Below, piece after piece: positions 6,286 through 37,003 of a DNA stretch of 64,000 bases (position 1 is its first letter; every line of letters starts with the position of its first letter). A program made the translations under genes and the position numbers. The notes under the pieces are model-generated. The model worked only from the letters and a program-made list of their open reading frames with translations. It made no database searches and was not told where the DNA came from. Source of the DNA: Rhizosphaericola mali. GTDB taxonomy: Bacteria; Bacteroidota; Bacteroidia; Chitinophagales; Chitinophagaceae. Location of the stretch: assembly GCF_004337365.2 (NCBI RefSeq), contig NZ_CP044016.1, forward strand, positions 1,240,001 to 1,304,000, given 5' to 3'.

Positions 6286-7782
6286 TTAATATCCAGGATT
6301 TTGAGTGTATAGTCCGTTTGATGTGGAGATTTGTGCTGTTGGAATAGGGTATAAGATACTATTATTTGTTGCATTAGATATCTGCGAGCTCAATCCATCG
6401 CTTGCTATCCAACTGTTAATCGTTGTTACCGCTTGTCCTTCTCTTATTAAATCATTCCATCGTAAACCTTCACCTGCAAATTCTCTTCTTCGTTCTTCTA
6501 ATAAACTACTAATAGTAAGAGATGTTAATGCTGATAGTCCGGCTCTTGCTCTTATTTGATTTACATATCCAAGTGCTTCAGCAGTTGAGCCAGTACCTCC
6601 ATTTAAAATACTTTCGGCCTTCATCAATAGAATATCTGCATATCTTAATACTATAAAATTAATAGGCCAATCTTTTCCATTACTTCCTTTATAGTTAATG
6701 TTTATATATTTTTTGAAAAATGTGGATACTTTGTAAGTGTAATTTATATTGAATGTATCTCTAATATCCTGTACTGTGCCAGAAGGTTCGTAGCTTGTTT
6801 TAAGATTATTAGTAATATTGAATACACTAGTACCATAACCATTTCCATAAGAATTTGAGATACCCAAACTTACCCAATAAGCGACAGGAACAAGATAACT
6901 TGGAAAGGCTGATCCATTTGTTCCACTTTTTGCTTGTACATCAAATATTACTTCGCTATTATTTTCATTTGTATATGAAAAAATATCTGTGTAATTATTT
7001 TGCAAACTATAAGTTCCGGAGTTAATTACTTGGTCGAAATAATAGGAAGCACTATCATATTGATTTGCATTTATCCCAGGTCCATTTATATCATAAGTAG
7101 GGCCAGATTTAGTCAGGTATACCTGTCCCGCTAACGCGTTGGCGGCACCTAATGTAGCTCTCCCAATATCAGCAGCATCATAAGTTGCAGGTAATATATT
7201 AATTGCCTGCTTTAAATCAGATACAATTAGATTATATACATCACTGACCTCACTTCTGGGTATTTGCGTAATTTCACTCACAGTAACAGGAGTAGTGACA
7301 ATAGGAACTTGCCCAAATTCTTTTACTAATTGGAAATAATAAAATGCTCGTAAAAAATATAATTCGCCATAATAACGTGTTTTTAGACTGGTATTTGTAA
7401 GTATTGAACCTTTTTCGTCTAAGGCTTCTAGTACAGAATTGACATTGTAAATGCCATTGAAGTTATCCTGCCATGCATCTGAAATAAATGTCGTACTGCC
7501 GATACTAGTGGAGAAATTATTAATCCCGTCCCAATCTCTATTTCCATCAGAGACCGCGTTAATATTATCACTGCGCATTTCTCCTAACCATAATGCTTGC
7601 TCGGGAAAATTGTTTAATTGCGCATAAGCACCAGTAACTGCTTGTTTGAAATCATTGGCATTGCTATAAAAATTTCCTGTCGTAGTACTAGATACAGGAG
7701 TTTGATCCAATTGTTTAGAGCAAGAAATTATTGATTGACTTAATATAGCAATAAAAAATATATTTAAAAAAATCTTTCGCAT
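6286..7782 (-). CDS. SusD/RagB-family glycan-binding outer-membrane lipoprotein
   Basis: 498 aa with a lipoprotein signal (SIISC, lipidated Cys near residue 21). The TPR-like helical core is typical of SusD (FLRAFYYFQLVKEFGQVPI around 145-163). The C-terminus carries the usual RYADILLMKAE and EERRREFAGEGLRWNDLIR motifs (about 377-447). It captures oligosaccharide at the cell surface and closes over the SusC pore. It follows SusC by 9 bases as in nearly all such loci, and length is ordinary. Confidence 0.95.
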   Translation of the reverse strand: MRKIFLNIFFIAILSQSIISCSKQLDQTPVSSTTTGNFYSNANDFKQAVTGAYAQLNNFPEQALWLGEMRSDNINAVSDGNRDWDGINNFSTSIGSTTFISDAWQDNFNGIYNVNSVLEALDEKGSILTNTSLKTRYYGELYFLRAFYYFQLVKEFGQVPIVTTPVTVSEITQIPRSEVSDVYNLIVSDLKQAINILPATYDAADIGRATLGAANALAGQVYLTKSGPTYDINGPGINANQYDSASYYFDQVINSGTYSLQNNYTDIFSYTNENNSEVIFDVQAKSGTNGSAFPSYLVPVAYWVSLGISNSYGNGYGTSVFNITNNLKTSYEPSGTVQDIRDTFNINYTYKVSTFFKKYININYKGSNGKDWPINFIVLRYADILLMKAESILNGGTGSTAEALGYVNQIRARAGLSALTSLTISSLLEERRREFAGEGLRWNDLIREGQAVTTINSWIASDGLSSQISNATNNSILYPIPTAQISTSNGLYTQNPGY

Positions 7783-7791
7783 GATGTTGAT

Positions 7792-10700
7792 TTAAAATGT
7801 AAGATTAAAGCCAAGAGTGATTGTTTTACTTAATGGTGCCGCGCCATAATCTCCAGGAAGAGGGTAGGAGCTATTACCACTATTGTTAGTATTTTGCGCT
7901 TCTGGATTTACACCTCCATCGTAATGATCTTTGGTAAAGATATTTTGTAGTGCTACATAAGCTCTCGCTTGTTTCAATACGCCTGTGGAGATTAATTTTC
8001 TAAAACTATATCCCAAGGTTACATTTTGAATACGCCAAAAATCAGAAGAATATAACCAATTAGAAGTTACATAGGGAACGGAGGCACTAGAATTTAATTT
8101 TCCTCTAGGTGCATTATAATTGGGATTGCTTGTAGACCAAGCATCTTTCCAAACCGCTAAATAATTGGCTGTTGTACTTCCTGGAAAATCAATAGCTCTA
8201 CCAAGGTAAGATAATATCTTTCCGCCTTGCTGACCATATGCTTGCACTGATAAATCCCATTCCCCATATTGAAACGTATTGGTTAGCCCCCAAGTATAAT
8301 TTGGATTGGGGTGTCCAGCAATAATACGATCATCGGCGGTAATTTTTCCATCACCATTTGCATCATAATATTTGGGATCTCCAACAGTTTCTTTGGATGT
8401 AGTTGCAACTTTATTATCGATATCTTGTTGAGTTAATATTCCATCCATTTTAGTTACAAGAAAGCTAAAAATAGGTTTACCCACTTGTAATAGATAGGGA
8501 GCATTACTACCACTATATGCAGAAGAAATCTCTATACGGTCTTGATTAGGACCTAAAGAGGTAACTTTATTTCCATTAAATGCTATGTTGGCATTGGTAT
8601 TCCAAGTGAATTTTCCGCTTTTAATAGTAATAGTATTTAACCCAATTTCCAAACCTTGAGTCTGCATACTGCCAATATTTTGTAAGGAAGTTGAAAAACC
8701 ACTCGCTGCCAACACTGGTAAATTCATCAATAAGTCTTTACTATTCTTTCTATATACATCAAAGGTTAAATTGACTCTGTGTGAAAATGCAGTTAAGTCA
8801 AATCCTAAATCATAGGTGTTGGAAGTTTCCCATTTGAGATTTGGATTTGCAATCCCCGAAACAACCATTCCTGGTGCTGCAGTTGATGAATTGCCACCAA
8901 AACTGTATGGATCTGAGGTATAGGTTTCTACGTTATTATAGTTTCCGATACTATTATTTCCTGCTTTACCCCAAGATGCCCTAAATTTTAAATCATTGAT
9001 GAAATGAATGTTGTTCTTAAAGAAATTTTCATCTGATATACGCCAACCGAAGGACAAGGATGGAAAAGTTCCCCATTTATTATTGCTTCCGAATCTTGAT
9101 GATCCATCTTTACGAATGCTTGCAGAGAACAAATATTTTGAATTAAAACTATACTGAGCTCTACCATAATACGATATTAAAACTGAATTACTTTCGGTAG
9201 TTGATCCAGAAAATGTTTCGCCTGATGCGCTTACAATTGCATTGTTGAGTGTTTGAACAATATCATTCGCATATCCGCCAAGGGTAGATAATCCAAAGGT
9301 TTCTGCATGAACTTTATTATAAGATTCCCCAGCAATAAACGATATCGCATGTCCACCATTGAAAGATTTATTATAATTTATAGTATTTTCATTTACTAAA
9401 TTTTGAATTGTCGCACCACTATAACCACCACTGGAATAATAACCGGGTTGAGAACTCCTGGCAGATAATGCACCAACAACTACTTGATCCGAAACATAGG
9501 TTTTTAAAGTTCTATTGATACCATCATAATTAATTGTAGATCTAGCAACCAAACCTGGAAGGATGGTATATTCTGTGTAGAAAGAAGCGATATTTCTAGT
9601 TATCTTATTTAAATTAGTTGACGTTTTTAAATAAGCATATGGATTGATTAATTTGACACTCCCCCAGGCATACCCATCGTTGGAATATGCATTGGTAAAT
9701 AATCCTGCAGAATCTTCTACAACCGGAGTATATTGAGCTGCATGCATTAAAACGTTATCTTTTCCTTCCAATGGTGGGGCATTGTTTAGAGAAAAAGACG
9801 GTGCAAGATTAATTCCTATTTTCAACTTTTTACTCACATTAGCCTCAACATTGGCTCTTAAACTATACGATTTATAATTTGTTTCGATAACTGTACCATC
9901 TTGATTTAGGTAATTACCTGCAATGAAGTAATGCACATTGTCATTACCTCCAGATGCACTCAAACTATAATTTTGAAATAGCGCTTTTCTATAAATAGCA
10001 TTTTGCCAATCAACTAATTGAATGCCCGGGTGACCTGGTTCAGCCCAACGATCATCCTTTACCAAACTTGTATTTAATGTACCTAATATAGCAATTCTTT
10101 CTGCTTCGGTTTGACTTGCAGAACGACCAGGTGCTGAATTTACCCAATTAGAGTCAGCAATTGCAGATGCTTGCTTTATCCAATCCTCAGGACTAAGAAC
10201 ATCGAGCTTTTTGGCTACACTACTTATGCCCGTATTTGAATTAAACGAAATTTGCGCTTTTCCACTTTTGCCTCTTTTGGTAGTAATTAAAACAACGCCA
10301 TTTGCGGCTCTTGATCCATAAATAGCACCTGCAGCGGCATCTTTTAATACTTGAATGCTTTCAATATCATTAGGACTTAAATTATTCAAAGGACTATTTG
10401 AGATGGATCCATTTGTACCTTGGCTAACAACATCTAATGGAAATCCATCAATAACATATAACGGTTCTGTTCCTGCAGATAAGGAGCCACTTCCTCTAAC
10501 AAGTATACTCAAACCTGCCCCTGGCATTCCAGATTGTTGTCTAACTTGTACGCCTGGCAATTGCCCGATTAAGGCTTGTTCGACCCTACTAATGGGTTTT
10601 TCTTCAATATTTTTGGCGTCAAATGTCGATTGTGCTCCTAGAAGATTTTTTCGCTTTTGCGTACCATAGCCAATGACTACAACATCGTTGGAAGAATCGA

Positions 10701-31349: not shown

Positions 31350-31825
31350 GATACAAGTGTAAAATTTAGAAGTATAATAGTATGTTTAAGAATGATTTCG
31401 TATTACGAAATATTTTGATTGATTTACTGGCAAAATTAGAATCGAATTTTTATTTATTATGTAGAATGAGTTCTACAAGAATATAGCGGAAATACAAAAA
31501 AAAGAAGCTATTAGTTTGATAGATTTGGAGAGTTTGCAATTGTGATTATTAATATTGTGATAAGCAACATTTACATAATTTATAGGAGATATTTTTAAGT
31601 AATAATAGAATTTAGCAACTTTTCAAATAATTGGCTTTTATTAAATATTGGTCATTATTGTTCTCCAATATTATAAAATAAAAAATGCAAAAATTCAACG
31701 ATTAAATAGGGCTATAATCCATTCTAAAAGTATTTTTTAACTTACAAGCATATTCATGAAATATTATTTTTTAGTATTAATTGCTAAAAATATTAGTATT
31801 TTTATATTTCGAAACAAGAATTAAT
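31350..31825. other. Divergent intergenic region, 476 bp
   Basis: It carries a minus-strand -7 element (31431-31438), a 17-bp palindrome (31395-31411), and a short GTAGAA-TGAG-TTCTAC repeat (31461-31476). A 26-codon open stretch here has no start codon. I see no gene. Confidence 0.45.
31395..31411. promoter_or_regulatory. Palindromic site upstream of the SprB-repeat gene
   Basis: ATTTCGTA-T-TACGAAAT is a perfect 8-bp inverted repeat. It lies between the candidate -7 TAATTTTG (31438-31431 on the minus strand) and the start codon, a position suited to a repressor. Confidence 0.4.
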
Positions 31826-33082
31826 ATGGAACGAATCGAAGAAAAGCTAAAAATATTGGCAGATGCGGCAAAGTATGATGTTAGTTGTAGTTCCAGCGGT
31901 AGCAAACGTAAAAATAATGGCAGTATAGGCGATGCATCTTTCTCAGGTATTTGCCACAGTTATACGGAAGATGGGCGTTGTGTCTCGTTGTTGAAGATTT
32001 TGTTGACGAACCATTGTATTTACGATTGTGCATTTTGTGTAAGTCGCAAAAGTAACGATGTTAGGCGTGCGGCATTTACGGTGCAAGAGGTTGTTGATTT
32101 GACGATGAATTTTTACCGCCGGAATTATATTGAAGGTTTGTTTTTGAGTTCAGGTATTTTCAAAAATGCCGACTACACAATGGAACGCCTACTCAGAATC
32201 GTCAAAAAACTCAGGACGGAAGAGCGTTACAATGGCTATATTCATCTAAAAACAATTCCTGGTGCGAGCGGAGAATTAATCCAAGACGCAGGATTGTATG
32301 TGGATCGCATGAGTATCAATCTCGAAATTCCAACTGAGGAAGGTTTAAAAATGGTCGCACCCGAAAAAGACCATGCATCCGTAAGAAAACCGCTTGCTTT
32401 TGTGCAAAACCAAATTAGCAATTTCAAATCTGAATCAAAATTAATCAAGCACAAACCTTTATTTGTTCCAGCTGGACAAAGTACACAAATGGTCGTCGGT
32501 GCTACACCAGAATCAGATCTGGAAATATTGAAAGTTGCAGATGATTTTTACCAAAACTATAAATTAAAACGCGTCTATTACAGCGGATATATTCCGATAT
32601 CCAGCGATAATAATCTCTTACCAGCAATCGGTACACGACCGCCATTGATCCGCGAAAACAGATTGTACCAAGCGGATTGGCTGATGCGTTTTTATGATTT
32701 CAAAGTGGACGAGATCGTCCATGAGAGCAAGCACCAATTGGATTTGGAAATTGATCCGAAACTTGCCTGGGCTTTACGGCATCCAGAATTGTTTCCTATT
32801 GACATTAATACGGCGAATTTTCGTACTATTATTAGGATTCCAGGTATTGGACGTCAATCCGCGATGAAAATTATCAAGGCAAGACAATTTGGTCGCCTAC
32901 ACGAATATCAATTACGTAAAATGGGCATAGCCTACAATCGTGCGCAATACTTTATCACTTGTGCAGATTCTATTATTAACATCGGGCACACATCCATGGA
33001 TTGGGTCAGAGCACAAATATTGCAACAGTCAAAGGCCAGTCAGAAATATCTTCCACAACAACAACTGTCATTATTTGTATGA
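31826..33082 (+). CDS. Putative DNA modification/repair radical SAM protein (TIGR03916-like)
   Basis: 418 aa from ATG 31826; an in-frame upstream start at 31781 would add only 15 unlike residues. The radical SAM cluster motif is CxxxCxxC (Cys64, Cys68, Cys71). After the TIM-barrel, a C-terminal helix-hairpin-helix (about 324-368, INTANFRTIIRIPGIG) suggests nucleic-acid contact. The first 30 residues have an extra Cys-rich patch. Its stop overlaps the start of the next gene (ATGA), so the two are made in fixed ratio. The family is known by name and genomic pairing. Its reaction is, to my knowledge, unproven. Confidence 0.9.
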   Translation: MERIEEKLKILADAAKYDVSCSSSGSKRKNNGSIGDASFSGICHSYTEDGRCVSLLKILLTNHCIYDCAFCVSRKSNDVRRAAFTVQEVVDLTMNFYRRNYIEGLFLSSGIFKNADYTMERLLRIVKKLRTEERYNGYIHLKTIPGASGELIQDAGLYVDRMSINLEIPTEEGLKMVAPEKDHASVRKPLAFVQNQISNFKSESKLIKHKPLFVPAGQSTQMVVGATPESDLEILKVADDFYQNYKLKRVYYSGYIPISSDNNLLPAIGTRPPLIRENRLYQADWLMRFYDFKVDEIVHESKHQLDLEIDPKLAWALRHPELFPIDINTANFRTIIRIPGIGRQSAMKIIKARQFGRLHEYQLRKMGIAYNRAQYFITCADSIINIGHTSMDWVRAQILQQSKASQKYLPQQQLSLFV

Positions 33083-33843
33083 TACAGTATATATACGACG
33101 GCAGCTTTGGAGGGTTCTTATGTTGTGTGTTTGAATGTTTTGAAAGAAGAGAGTTTGATGTACAATTGATTACTGAAAAAGTATTTGCACCTGACTTTTT
33201 TGCCTTATCCAAAACAATAGTCTCGGATAAAGCAAAAGCAAAACGTGTATTGGATGGCTTGACCAAAAGTTTGGACGCAAGTCGTGCAAAAGATTTTTTT
33301 CGTGTCTTTCTTTCCGAAGACCCAATTGCGATTCAAAATGCATTGGGTCTTATCATTCAAATATTTCAAAAAAAAGAAAATATTTTGGAAAATTATGGAG
33401 AGGAAAAAGCGCTTTATTTTTCCCAAACGTTGAAAAAAGTAGGACGAGAAAGACACCGAATGAAAGCCTTTATACGGTTTGAAAAAAGCTCGAACGGAAT
33501 GTTTTTTGCGGTTATTGCGCCTGATTTCAACGTATTGCCTTTAATTATAGATTTCTTCACCAAAAGATATACGGATCAAACTTGGCTTATATATGATGAA
33601 AAAAGACATTATGGGATCTTGTATGATAAGACGGGAATTTCAGAAATAGAAATTTCAGAGCTTGATGCAAACGCTATAATTCCGTCCAATGAAGTGGTGG
33701 TGTTAGATCTTGAAGAACAAAAATATCAACAACTTTGGAAATCTTATTTTAAAAGCACCAATATTGAAGCTCGGAAAAACATGAAGTTACACTTACGTCA
33801 TGTACCCAAGAGGTATTGGCGCTACTTGACGGAGAAGAAATAA
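33079..33843 (+). CDS. TIGR03915/DUF4130-like DNA metabolism protein, partner of the radical SAM protein
   Basis: 254 aa from ATG 33079, preferred to an upstream start at 33001 because it gives the ATGA overlap and the conserved N-terminus IYDGSFGGFLCCVFE (about 3-17). A central helical part is followed by RMKAFIRFEKSSNGMFFAVIAPDFNVLPLI (about 133-162) and the C-terminal RHVPKRYWRYLTE (about 239-251), typical of DUF4130. In other bacteria this domain is fused to UdgX-type uracil-DNA proteins; here no UdgX is nearby. Coupled to the radical SAM gene, so joint action on DNA is the best inference. Confidence 0.88.
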   Translation: MIQYIYDGSFGGFLCCVFECFERREFDVQLITEKVFAPDFFALSKTIVSDKAKAKRVLDGLTKSLDASRAKDFFRVFLSEDPIAIQNALGLIIQIFQKKENILENYGEEKALYFSQTLKKVGRERHRMKAFIRFEKSSNGMFFAVIAPDFNVLPLIIDFFTKRYTDQTWLIYDEKRHYGILYDKTGISEIEISELDANAIIPSNEVVVLDLEEQKYQQLWKSYFKSTNIEARKNMKLHLRHVPKRYWRYLTEKK

Positions 33844-33956
33844 AATTAATCAGATAGGTATAAATTTACAATCTCTATTTCTAATTAAGGCTTAAAATAA
33901 TTTTAAATATTTTAAGAAAAGCTACATTTTAATTTATATTCAGTACATTCGATTTA

Positions 33957-34079
33957 GCTTTAGGGGTATTCTGAAAAGAATTGAGAGAGTCCCTTAGAAC
34001 CTGATTCGGTTGATACCGACGTAGGGAAAAGTAAATTAGGTCAGTTTTTGTACCTCTTTGTTTGGAATTCTCCTAAAGC
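33957..34079 (+). ncRNA. TPP riboswitch (thi box) with candidate expression platform
   Basis: The core at 33963-34032 holds the thi-box landmarks: GGGGT, a variant CTGAGA region (TTGAGAGA), CCTGATTCGG and the ACGTAGGGAAAAGT tail. It lies 25-140 bases before thiM. An 8-bp arm GCTTTAGG (33957-33964) is complementary to CCTAAAGC (34072-34079); the left arm overlaps the 5' side of helix P1, so pairing there would compete with the aptamer. The aptamer is recognised from sequence; the switching scheme is inferred. Confidence 0.92.
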
Positions 34080-34103: not shown

Positions 34104-34898
34104 ATGGATAAAAAAATTTGGGAGTTGATTTCTTCCGTAAGGCAATCTTCGCCGCTTATCTTAAATATTACGAACTATGTAGTGATGAATAATTCCGCGA
34201 ATGCATTATTATCCATAGGAGCTTCGCCTATTATGTCTCATGCCATTACTGAAATGGAAGAAATGCTTCGGATTGCCAATGCATTAGTTATTAATATTGG
34301 CACTTTAGATGAAAATTGGAGCAAATCAATGTTATTAGGTGCAGAGCTTGCAATGCAGATGGATAAGCCTTGGATACTAGATCCAGTTGGTGCAGGATCT
34401 ACTACTTACAGGAGCAATATTTCGGATCAATTATTACAATTTAACCCCACTATTATTAGAGGTAATGCGTCAGAAATTATGGCACTTGCAAAATACCATA
34501 ATGGAAATACAAAAGGTGTAGATAGTTGTAATAATAGTTTGGATGCTATTTCGGCTGCACAGTATTTAAATAATAAGTATAGTTCAATAGTTTGTATTTC
34601 GGGAGAAGTTGATATTATAGTTTCAATGAATGATATTTATTATTTGAAGAATGGTCATGCTTTAATGACAAAAGTAACAGGTTTGGGATGTAGTCAATCT
34701 GCTATCCTCGGAGGAATGATAGCAATATCCAAAGATGTAATTTTAGCGGCTTTAGCGGGAATGGCACTGTTGGGAGTAGCAGGAGAGCTAGCCGCAGCCA
34801 AATCTGCTGGTCCGGGATCGTTACAATTGAATCTTTTAGACAAATTATATAATCTAACAGAGTCAGAGTTTATTCAAACTATTCAATTATCCAAATGA
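34104..34898 (+). CDS. thiM: Hydroxyethylthiazole kinase
   Basis: 264 aa, cytoplasmic. It phosphorylates 4-methyl-5-(2-hydroxyethyl)thiazole for thiamine salvage. Family features are ITNYVVMNNSANALLSIGASPIM (about 20-42, as landmark), DPVGAG (about 92-97), IRGNASEI (about 117-124) and the VTGLGCSQSA catalytic segment (about 192-201), where the key Cys is present. First gene after the TPP riboswitch; its stop overlaps the thiE start by 4 bases. Confidence 0.96.
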   Translation: MDKKIWELISSVRQSSPLILNITNYVVMNNSANALLSIGASPIMSHAITEMEEMLRIANALVINIGTLDENWSKSMLLGAELAMQMDKPWILDPVGAGSTTYRSNISDQLLQFNPTIIRGNASEIMALAKYHNGNTKGVDSCNNSLDAISAAQYLNNKYSSIVCISGEVDIIVSMNDIYYLKNGHALMTKVTGLGCSQSAILGGMIAISKDVILAALAGMALLGVAGELAAAKSAGPGSLQLNLLDKLYNLTESEFIQTIQLSK

Positions 34899-35536
34899 CC
34901 AGAAAAGAAAAAACATTCCCTTATCAACTATATCTTGTGATATCTAAAAATGATTGTAAAAACAAAAATATGTTGCATGTCGCTGAGCAAGCAATTTTAG
35001 GTGGCGTTGATCTTATCCAAATAAGAGAAAAAAAATTATCTTATGAATTATTTTTAGAAGAAGCTGCAAGATTATTAGAAATAACGACGAAGTATGGAGT
35101 TCCCCTTATAATTAATGATAATATTAATATTGCAATTCAATTGGACACGGCTGGTGTGCATGTTGGTAACAATGATATTGCACCAACTCAAATACGCAAA
35201 ATATGGAATGAGCCATCTAAATTAATAGGATACTCGATTGAATATATGGATCAACTGAAAAGTGATGATTGCATAGTGTCAGATTATTTGGGGATCAGTC
35301 CTGTATTCCTTACTCCAACTAAAAAAGATACTGTTACAGAGTGGGGACTTTCCGGTATTACAAAAATTAGAAAGAATACAGATCTACCATTGATTGCTAT
35401 TGGAAATATACATAAAGAAAATATTCGATCCGTTATAAAAGCTGGCGCCGATTGTATAGCAGTAGTTTCTGCTATTTGCAGTGCTATTGAACCTCAAAAA
35501 GCCGCATTTGAATTAAAAAATGAAATTTTAAAATGA
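34895..35536 (+). CDS. thiE: Thiamine phosphate synthase
   Basis: 213 aa TIM barrel. It joins the pyrimidine pyrophosphate and thiazole phosphate to form thiamine monophosphate. Landmarks are VDLIQIREKKLS (about 39-50), PLIINDNINIA (about 70-80) with the Mg-binding Asp, GVHVGNNDI (about 87-95), LGISPVFLTPTKKD (about 128-141) and IAIGNI (about 168-173). Overlaps thiM and thiD by 4 bases each (ATGA), so translation is coupled. Confidence 0.95.
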   Translation: MTRKEKTFPYQLYLVISKNDCKNKNMLHVAEQAILGGVDLIQIREKKLSYELFLEEAARLLEITTKYGVPLIINDNINIAIQLDTAGVHVGNNDIAPTQIRKIWNEPSKLIGYSIEYMDQLKSDDCIVSDYLGISPVFLTPTKKDTVTEWGLSGITKIRKNTDLPLIAIGNIHKENIRSVIKAGADCIAVVSAICSAIEPQKAAFELKNEILK

Positions 35537-36369
35537 AAAAATATACTTACCCGTCGGTTATGACGATTGCAGGGTTTGATGGGAGCGGAGGCGCTGGGAT
35601 ACAAGCAGATATCAAGACCATCTCTGCACTTGGATGTTTTGCGACCTCTGTATTGACGGCTCTTCCTGTACAAAATACAACTGGTGTTAAACACATTTTT
35701 CCTATTCCGATTGAGGCCGTAAAACTACAAATAGAAACTATAATGGAAGATATCATGCCTGATTCTATCAAAATAGGTATGGTACACACTTCTGAATTAG
35801 CTATAACAATAGTGGATACACTTAAAAAATTTAAAAAAGTACCAATAGTATTTGACCCTGTTATGGTTGCCACTAGTGGTCACCGATTAATAGAAGATGA
35901 TACAATTGAAGTAATGATTGAGAAATTATTTCCAATAGCGGATATTATAACGCCTAATATGGATGAAATTGCCATACTTGCCAATTGTAAAGTTGATAAT
36001 TTGGAAGAAATGATCCTTGCTGGAGAATATATTAAAAAACTTGGTTGTAAAAATATTTTACTAAAAGGAGGACATCTACCAACTGAAAAACTAACTTCTA
36101 TATTACTCACTCCAGAAGAGATTAAATTTTATAGTTATGATAAAGTACTAACGAATAATACTCATGGTTCTGGATGTACCTTGTCATCGGCTATTGCATC
36201 CTATTTAGCTTTAGGATATCCAACTAATGAAGCTGTTTATCTTGGACAGGAATATGTATTTAATGCAATAAGCAATGGCGCAGATGTATTGATTGGAAAA
36301 GGAAATGGTCCTTTAAATCACTTTTATAAACCTCAGAAATTAGTAAAAAATGAAATGGTCAGATCATAG
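35533..36369 (+). CDS. thiD: Hydroxymethylpyrimidine / phosphomethylpyrimidine kinase
   Basis: 278 aa ribokinase-fold enzyme giving hydroxymethylpyrimidine pyrophosphate for ThiE. Seen are IAGFDGSGGAGIQADIKT at the start (about 12-29), DPVMVATSGHRL (about 108-119), the TPNMDE segment (about 137-142) and the catalytic THGSGCTLSSAIA loop (about 209-221). Overlaps the upstream gene by 4 bases and tenA by 20. Confidence 0.96.
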   Translation: MKKYTYPSVMTIAGFDGSGGAGIQADIKTISALGCFATSVLTALPVQNTTGVKHIFPIPIEAVKLQIETIMEDIMPDSIKIGMVHTSELAITIVDTLKKFKKVPIVFDPVMVATSGHRLIEDDTIEVMIEKLFPIADIITPNMDEIAILANCKVDNLEEMILAGEYIKKLGCKNILLKGGHLPTEKLTSILLTPEEIKFYSYDKVLTNNTHGSGCTLSSAIASYLALGYPTNEAVYLGQEYVFNAISNGADVLIGKGNGPLNHFYKPQKLVKNEMVRS

Positions 36370-37003
36370 TTGGAATGCAATAGAACCAATTTATAATAAA
36401 ATAACCACCATGCCATTTATACAAGAATTGGCGAATGGAAAACTAGCAACTGAAAAATTTAAATATTATATTGGTCAAGATGCCTTGTATTTAGAGCAGT
36501 TCGGACGTGTTTTAGCAATGATTGCAGCAAAAGCACCTAATACAGAAATTGCATTGGCATTTATTCAATTTAGTCAAAATGCGATGGTAGTTGAAAATAC
36601 ACTACATGCTTCCTATTTTTTAGATTATAATATTACAAATAATTTTATTTTACAACCAGCTTGTCATCATTATACGCATTTCTTAAAAAGTATAGTTTCT
36701 TTTGATTCAATTGAAATTGCCATGGCCGCCGTTTTACCTTGTTTCTGGATTTACAAAAAAGTGGGAGATTATCTACTTAATCTCAAAACTGTAAATAATA
36801 ATCCCTATCAAAAATGGATAAATACCTATGGAGGTGAAGATTTTGCTATTTCTGTAACAAAAGCTATTCGTCTTTGTGATGAAGTCGCTGATATTTCTAA
36901 TAAAAAAATTAAAGATCAGATGACTTCTGTATTTTATCGTGCCTCTATTATGGAATTTGAATTTTGGGATGCCGCTTATTTTATGAAACAATGGAGTTAT
37001 TAG
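36350..37003 (+). CDS. tenA: Thiaminase II / aminopyrimidine aminohydrolase
   Basis: 217 aa all-helical TenA fold. It releases the pyrimidine from degraded thiamine for reuse by ThiD. Key parts are FKYYIGQDALYLEQFGRVLA (about 37-56), the conserved Cys in AAVLPCFWIYKKVG (about 125-138, Cys about 130), and the C-terminal EFEFWDAAY (about 203-211) with the catalytic Glu. Last gene of the salvage operon. Its stop is 7 bp from that of the convergent phosphoethanolamine transferase, with no terminator hairpin seen. Confidence 0.94.
   Translation: MKWSDHSWNAIEPIYNKITTMPFIQELANGKLATEKFKYYIGQDALYLEQFGRVLAMIAAKAPNTEIALAFIQFSQNAMVVENTLHASYFLDYNITNNFILQPACHHYTHFLKSIVSFDSIEIAMAAVLPCFWIYKKVGDYLLNLKTVNNNPYQKWINTYGGEDFAISVTKAIRLCDEVADISNKKIKDQMTSVFYRASIMEFEFWDAAYFMKQWSY

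Follow-up and report, generated by a model that had tools for sequence, protein, structure and literature searches.

Does a radical S-adenosylmethionine (SAM) protein that is encoded together with a DUF4130 protein act on DNA, and what would bring such a pair to its substrate? The question is raised by a stretch of 64,000 nucleotides (nt) of Rhizosphaericola mali (NZ_CP044016.1, positions 1,240,001-1,304,000, forward strand), called the window below, in which two overlapping genes encode a radical SAM protein of the family TIGR03916 (rSAM_link_UDG) and a TIGR03915/DUF4130 protein. A preliminary description of this DNA had put the pair forward as an undescribed DNA-repair or modification system. 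Our analysis suggests that it is an SOS-linked, clamp-directed system for the processing of DNA lesions, whether by repair or by tolerance, and we give this reading a probability of about 0.7; confidence in any single lesion as the substrate is low. The features on which it is built are, in window coordinates:

31784-31796, no strand assigned: CTAAAAATATTAG, CTAA-N5-TTAG, putative LexA (SOS) operator; first base 42 bp before the ATG at 31826, with 29 bp between
31826-33082, plus strand: radical SAM gene, TIGR03916, 418 amino acids; ATG at 31826, TGA at 33080-33082
31886-31981, plus strand: N-terminal Cys loop with H44 and with C21, C43 and C52, three cysteines additional to those of CX3CX2C
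32015-32038, plus strand: CX3CX2C radical SAM cluster motif, residues 64-71 (C64/C68/C71)
32798-32887, plus strand: helix-hairpin-helix, residues 325-354 (Pfam HHH_3)
33062-33076, plus strand: QLSLF clamp-type peptide, residues 413-417 of 418; the protein ends ...QQQLSLFV
33079-33843, plus strand: TIGR03915/DUF4130 gene, 254 amino acids; ATG at 33079-33081
33346-33834, plus strand: Pfam DUF4130 core, residues 90-252

A putative sliding-clamp peptide ends the radical SAM protein

The clamp-binding consensus is given as QL[S/D]LF, or more broadly QxxLF, in the excerpts of PMC12309361 available to us, where the QLSLF peptide of PolC is reported to bind Bacillus subtilis DnaN with a dissociation constant of ~3.8 uM and QLSLPL is named as a tight hexapeptide for the Escherichia coli clamp. 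PolC as portrayed there shares a short QxxLF-type peptide with the TIGR03916 tail but is not a radical SAM enzyme. Among 88 aligned relatives of the window protein Q413 is invariant (88/88), and L414, L416 and F417 are kept in 77, 79 and 80 of them, respectively; the residues that precede the peptide (~380-412) are mostly variable.

For counts across the family we used 121 radical SAM loci, made up of 81 from Bacteroidota, a proteobacterial set of 39 (38 loci and the IMG/VR contig L135) and the Bacillota plasmid L013. The window's own loci (L001, L003) are excluded from all counts, and duplicate, near-duplicate or shortened loci (L010, L027, L097, L098, L105, L136) from the tail statistics and pairing counts. 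L002 and L004-L007 are relatives; 80 of the loci are the best 80 of at least 592 relatives, so that near relatives are over-represented, and those drawn from the Pseudomonadota genome sample described below are the best 30 of 53. Within this set 44 tails carry QL[SD]LF, 52 another QxxLF and 10 the hexapeptide form Q[LM]x[LIM]x[FL], while 15 are variants (QLSIF, QLKMF, five QLSLL, four QLGFGF, QLQLI, QMLLI, QFIIQF and QYSIDW). The textbook motif is therefore found in 106 of 121 tails as against 2 of 1183 background open reading frames (ORFs; one QxxLF and one hexapeptide within the last 12 residues), the background being the other ORFs of the same loci with non-coding ORFs among them. When looser pentapeptides such as QLSLL are included, the figures become 113/121 and 4/1183. 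Similar tails occur outside the set in Fusobacterium (QLKLF), Acetoanaerobium (QLSIF) and two gut-phage records (QLSFF and QLSLF), three of these four having extra residues after the motif, as well as in Agrobacterium (QLSLL) and Caballeronia (QLSLI).

In the model of the radical SAM protein residues 405-418 have a predicted local distance difference test score (pLDDT) below 50, and this low confidence fits what is expected of a docking peptide. Judged by its sequence, the tail has the properties of a clamp client, in that it carries the consensus QLSLF, is conserved and is predicted to be accessible. The literature searched yielded no paper that couples a radical SAM enzyme with a clamp-binding motif; the two papers listed for this combination deal, judged by title and abstract, with an antibiotic and with DNA repair in cancer therapy. 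The clamp clients ImuB, Pol IV and MutS, which carry a QxxLF-type peptide, are not radical SAM enzymes.

Putative SOS-type operators precede the pair in many clades

Two motifs have been described as binding sites of non-canonical LexA repressors in Bacteroidetes, with support from electrophoretic mobility shift assays, and both repressor groups are reported to be missing from Bacteroidales (PMC8565304, in the parts available to us). The CTAA-N5-TTAG upstream of the window pair fits one of them. It is the sole exact copy in the window, where shuffled sequences lead one to expect 1.70, and the whole genome holds 108 copies in 4.70 Mb against 228 of the reversed control pattern, so that there is no genome-wide enrichment; at one site per ~43 kb, the calculated chance of finding one within 250 bp of a given start is ~0.6%. 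The same motif stands ~10 nt before umuD in each of three very similar umuDC operons of this genome (L174, L175 and L176, one of them Pfam-checked), and 46 nt before the ATG of a gene for a 253-aa XRE-S24 protein (L178, Pfam-checked). With an operator-like site upstream and an XRE-S24 repressor gene in the genome, the window operon has the predicted make-up of an SOS regulon member.

A dyad search had two such patterns among its top dyads: CTAA-N5-TTAG, present in 21 of the 25 sphingobacterial-type operons (counting the window) and in 9 of 375 background stretches, and TGGA-N5-TCCA, present in 10 of 11 flavobacterial operons and in 7 of 165 background stretches; the two dyads fit the two LexA motifs of PMC8565304, as far as our excerpts of it go. 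In 11 flavobacterial loci (L070, L071, L073-L076, L078, L080, L083, L084 and L092) a divergent XRE-S24 gene, non-canonical LexA-like, lies directly upstream of the radical SAM gene (two were Pfam-checked), and 10 of these 11 contain three or four copies each of GGA-N5-TCC. Sites of other types appear elsewhere. The alphaproteobacterial direct repeat of the GTTC-N7-GTTC type, which mostly begins 17 nt ahead of the predicted start, is present in 28 of 39 stretches (one an IMG/VR contig, the other 38 proteobacterial; L010, L027, L097, L105 and L136 are excluded from these box counts) compared with 60 of 780 random stretches, a background that is too high insofar as random stretches may overlap true boxes. 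L131 and L134 have CTGT-N8-ACAG instead (background 6/780), as has Caballeronia L140 (CTGTATAAATATACAG), and GAAC-N4-GTTC occurs twice each in the gut-phage record L143 and, spotted by eye, upstream of the pair on the Bacillota plasmid L013. LexA-type sites typical of the respective clade precede many of the related operons.

A UvrA-type gene was also seen a few kb downstream of the pair in eight loci (L066, L070, L071, L073-L075, L084 and L092), on the same strand in seven, with one confirmed by Pfam. Save for these and the XRE-S24 genes, recurrent neighbours look like genus or family synteny, and a conserved third gene was rejected. Downstream of the window pair, a thiamine pyrophosphate (TPP) riboswitch at 33952-34044 (Rfam RF00059, 75.7 bits) is followed by genes at 34104-37003 that look like thiamine genes, presumably an independent transcription unit.

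UdgX is an optional addition to a two-gene core

Both ORFs belong to their families far above the level of chance. The radical SAM protein scores 671.2 bits against the NCBIfam model TIGR03916 (cut-off 343.5, E 6.3e-202) and its partner 250.1 bits against TIGR03915 (cut-off 112.25, E 2.4e-74), with Pfam matches of 36.6 bits to Radical_SAM (cut-off 29.5) and 168.8 bits to DUF4130 (PF13566, cut-off 27). The ORF coordinates and the ATGA overlap, which joins the stop codon of the first gene to the start codon of the second, were found exactly as first described, and by sequence the locus is a typical representative of two families that are already known. Among the named relatives found, the Sphingobacterium faecale protein comes closest to the radical SAM protein of the window, with 78% identity. 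A more distant homologue in Gemmatirosa (Gemmatimonadota; L139:4500-6098, 34.5% identical) scores 302.3 bits, under the TIGR03916 cut-off; it has QLSLW near its end and retains CX3CX2C, lacks the N-terminal Cys trio, and no DUF4130 was found in its locus.

DUF4130 lies within the locus, always on the same strand, in 115 of the 121 radical SAM loci, and the distance from the radical SAM stop to the first aligned DUF4130 residue is at most 60 nt in 77 of these 115 and more than 300 nt in 14. Six loci are without it: L126 and L129 have TIGR03915 ~3 kb downstream (genomes G310 and G322), the genomes of L086, L089 and L094 carry it elsewhere, away from the radical SAM locus, and L135 is the IMG/VR contig, which lacks it within its stretch. 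In 299 evenly drawn Pseudomonadota genomes, searched for TIGR03916, TIGR03915 and TIGR03914, the radical SAM family is over the cut-off in 53 and TIGR03915 in 56, and every one of the 53 has both; the pairing extends across phyla.

The cross-linking UDG (uracil-DNA glycosylase) UdgX (TIGR03914) follows another pattern. It is over the cut-off in 39 of the 53 Pseudomonadota pair genomes and missing from 14, and 12 further genomes have UdgX without the radical SAM gene. In many Proteobacteria a UDG domain with UdgX-type motifs is fused C-terminally to DUF4130 (24 fused rows, the duplicates L097/L098 among them and one confirmed by Pfam; GEQPG in 24/24, KRR[IL]H in 18/24), while the Bacteroidota loci compared for this fusion gave no UDG-like match. 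The absence of an adjacent UdgX, pointed out in the preliminary description, extends to the whole 4.7-Mb genome of R. mali, which has no TIGR03914 match at E <= 0.001, and Pfam finds no UDG domain (PF03167) in the window partner up to E 1. None of 28 other pair-bearing genomes, hand-picked from relatives (5/5) and TIGR03916 loci (23/80), has UdgX over the cut-off, five showing weak matches beneath it; such absence is usual for the Rhizosphaericola-type form of the pair. Two alphaproteobacterial plasmids carry UdgX over the cut-off; one phage record and the Bacillota plasmid do not. Given the 53/53 pairing as against 39/53 for UdgX, and none over the cut-off in the 28 genomes, we regard the radical SAM and DUF4130 genes as the predicted core and UdgX as an optional add-on, and reject UdgX as an obligate component.

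The reading as a phage or mobile-element gene was likewise rejected: matches came from 10 of 50,697 phage records, 2 confirmed viral contigs and 158 of 72,556 plasmid records, several of which are as large as chromosomes, so that the distribution is mainly cellular. One of the records concerned, L010 (CAKLQH020000003.1), is titled Acinetobacter phage MD-2021a but contains glyQS, aroE and acyl-CoA dehydrogenase genes in an order largely as in an A. baumannii record, with bacterial genes on both sides of the match, and is probably mislabelled bacterial DNA. In Azospirillum L014 a TnpB-type gene (7240-8382) sits between the radical SAM and DUF4130-UdgX genes.

Conserved residues and predicted structures

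The CX3CX2C motif is kept in all 88 rows of the TIGR03916 alignment (A4), as are C21, C43, C52 and H44 of the N-terminal loop, and the three cysteines are a candidate site for an auxiliary Fe-S cluster. The C-terminal helix-hairpin-helix of the preliminary description was recovered with 25.3 bits (HHH_3, E 1.7e-5), slightly under the Pfam cut-off of 27, and its profile (A6) matches the ComEA-related structure 2duy at E 0.0027. The model of the protein (pLDDT 82.2) has the usual barrel, nearest to LipA (Z 17.9), HydE and BioB; residues 21-52 fall below pLDDT 50 despite their conservation. Spore photoproduct lyase is absent from the listed rows of the fold comparison, which says nothing either way.

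Twelve residues of the DUF4130 protein are invariant in the 80 rows of alignment A5 (R133, F134, P148, F160, R163, W169, W220, Y223, R232, P243, W247 and E252), and nine of them are likewise unchanged throughout A3 (87 rows); invariance of R56 is confined to the stand-alone rows. The model (pLDDT 91.1) yields Foldseek matches in the PDB that are led by PggH, PAP phosphatase, a DHH domain and RecJ (best E 2.3e-3, TM score <=0.43), and in the viral library BFVD named rows led by phage exopolyphosphatase, NrnB and DHH proteins (best E 1.4e-3). With VIA-align, PAP phosphatase (Z 9.1, root mean square deviation 5.1, 195 aligned) comes first, and the places after it, to rank 27, go to RecJ, Cdc45 and related proteins, replisome chains being taken as Cdc45. 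Sequence searches with the single protein gave no homologue of solved structure, and the profile only insignificant ones (best E 0.36). The metal motifs of DHH proteins are largely missing: the letters DHH occur in 2 of 80 rows, and DxD within the first 40 residues in 11 of 80. The modelled fold perhaps resembles DHH/RecJ/Cdc45 proteins, but without their catalytic motifs.

Alternative explanations and the preferred reading

COG4277 is, we assume, the same family as TIGR03916, and the operon known as COG1573-COG4277 very probably consists of the same genes as the window pair. PMC8565304 labels it a "uracil-DNA glycosylase base excision repair system", and on this account the partner would excise uracil with the radical SAM protein assisting. 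The DUF4130-UDG fusions of proteobacterial loci and the frequent presence of UdgX in Pseudomonadota pair genomes speak for it; the window partner, however, matches DUF4130 alone, the genome lacks TIGR03914, and neither the 28 other genomes nor the uncoupled cases within Pseudomonadota (14 pairs without UdgX, 12 UdgX genomes without the radical SAM gene) follow the label, so that we consider this explanation unlikely. A second possibility is that DUF4130 is itself the enzyme, a diverged phosphoesterase or nuclease of the DHH type, which the radical SAM protein regulates or supplies with a cofactor; this would account for the fold matches, mostly to the DHH superfamily, and for the twelve invariant residues, including R133, R163, R232 and E252. 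The rarity of DHH and DxD argues against this, as does the lack of any conserved position shared by stand-alone and fused forms before residue 121; hhalign against 10 RecJ and 6 NrnA-type sequences, albeit with shallow sets, returned probabilities of 0.08% and 0.12%, no better than 24 control families. Profile similarity of DUF4130 to RecJ or NrnA is for this reason rejected and DHH homology not claimed, and an enzymatic DUF4130 seems quite unlikely to us. That the pair modifies RNA or a cofactor by MiaB/LipA/BioB-like chemistry and is merely co-regulated with the SOS response agrees with the radical SAM barrel, nearest to LipA, HydE and BioB at Z 16-18, and with an N-terminal Cys trio that may be likened to that of sulfur-inserting enzymes, but DNA is indicated by the clamp-type tail, by the helix-hairpin-helix and by SOS boxes that belong to several different LexA types, and we regard this possibility as very improbable.

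Several observations weigh against a clamp-directed, SOS-linked system and should be considered with it. Eight of the 121 tails fit no motif form applied, and a clamp peptide tells of the possible location of an enzyme, not of its activity; among solved structures, the radical SAM model most resembles cofactor enzymes. For DUF4130, in addition to the missing profile similarity, no Foldseek match in the PDB or the viral library reaches E <= 0.001, and the top Z, 9.1, only slightly exceeds the 7-8 that best matches usually reach. Regulation is uneven. In the Bacteroidota counts (82 rows including the window, with clade groups made by hand from record titles) CTAA-N5-TTAG is absent upstream of all 12 Chryseobacterium-type operons, of another 9 flavobacterial operons and of all 9 from Bacteroidales, a single Bacteroidales locus having GGA-N5-TCC 211 bp upstream. 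CTAA-N5-TTAG is found in 4 of the 8 cytophagal/hymenobacterial loci and in 3 of the 8 loci from the rest of the Bacteroidota. At zero mismatches none of the boxes tried was found in the Acinetobacter, Moraxella, Psychrobacter and Brachymonas loci, L106 or L127, nor was any in Fusobacterium L137 or Acetoanaerobium L138. Since several clades are without any box tried, damage control of the operon does not appear to be universal across the family. The radical SAM gene is present in only 6 of 59 relatives, own genome counted, and many loci are closely related, so that the counts are not independent.

We nevertheless favour a clamp-directed system under SOS control, which could work as follows. DNA damage would lead to cleavage of the repressor and induction of the operon through the operator-like site seen upstream, and the C-terminal QLSLF would tether the radical SAM enzyme to DnaN where forks have stalled or gaps are present. 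The helix-hairpin-helix and DUF4130 would hold DNA, with DUF4130, perhaps a catalytically degenerate DHH/RecJ/Cdc45-like protein, binding and presenting the damaged strand. A 5'-deoxyadenosyl radical, for which the CX3CX2C motif is in place, may then abstract hydrogen from the damaged nucleotide and restore or remodel it, with possible help from an auxiliary cluster held by C21/C43/C52. In proteins that join UdgX to DUF4130, this step could be coupled to uracil excision and capture of the abasic site, by extension from UdgX biochemistry (PMC10359453, available to us in part). The most specific version is a radical SAM repair machine on the sliding clamp, glycosylase-free and in obligate complex with a RecJ/Cdc45-like subunit that lacks a nuclease site, possibly with the auxiliary Fe-S cluster, to which proteobacteria would have added UdgX as a trap for the abasic product; it remains tentative, and we would give it somewhat less than even odds.

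Relation to earlier work and significance

Spore photoproduct lyase (SplB) is a radical SAM enzyme for DNA damage, which repairs 5-thyminyl-5,6-dihydrothymine; to our knowledge it forms a separate family, and we know of no clamp peptide or DUF4130 partner in it. It resembles the pair as a radical SAM protein with links to DNA damage and to the SOS response, SplB being SOS-regulated in several species as cited in PMC8565304. SOS regulation of the pair's operon was itself already known or predicted, because that study, in the parts available to us, predicts COG1573-COG4277 to be an SOS-regulated two-gene operon in Bacteroidetes and cites earlier reports from Verrucomicrobia and Alphaproteobacteria. 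It is similar to the window pair as two genes under the same LexA motifs in Bacteroidetes and different in that the COG1573-type partner of the window lacks a UDG domain; those parts of the account mention no clamp peptide and no fold for DUF4130. An association of DUF4130 with a SplB-like radical SAM protein and UDG, predicted to be mutagenesis-related, is described in PMC3765255, which joins DUF4130 to a radical SAM protein as in the window, and in the sections available to us mentions no clamp peptide and assigns DUF4130 to no structural class. No demonstrated reaction for the pair turned up in the literature searched, in agreement with the preliminary description. Of its proposal of an undescribed DNA-repair or modification system, the DNA-damage role is thus supported by the SOS-type site and the putative clamp peptide, but what is apparently this operon had been published as an SOS operon. 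The new elements are a clamp peptide present almost throughout the family, the finding that UdgX is optional, and a DUF4130 model of DHH-like appearance.

The "UDG system" label does not fit the UdgX-free form of the pair, and it is here corrected for forms without a UDG domain. The family is common, with 53 of 299 Pseudomonadota genomes and at least 592 stretches of the species-genome collection encoding TIGR03916, yet patchy among the 59 relatives, and it is found behind LexA sites of differing types. The clamp peptide makes its function directly testable, through binding to DnaN and through the need for the peptide in survival or mutagenesis. If the tail does bind DnaN, this would be, by the literature searched, the first case of a radical SAM enzyme connected with the replication clamp.

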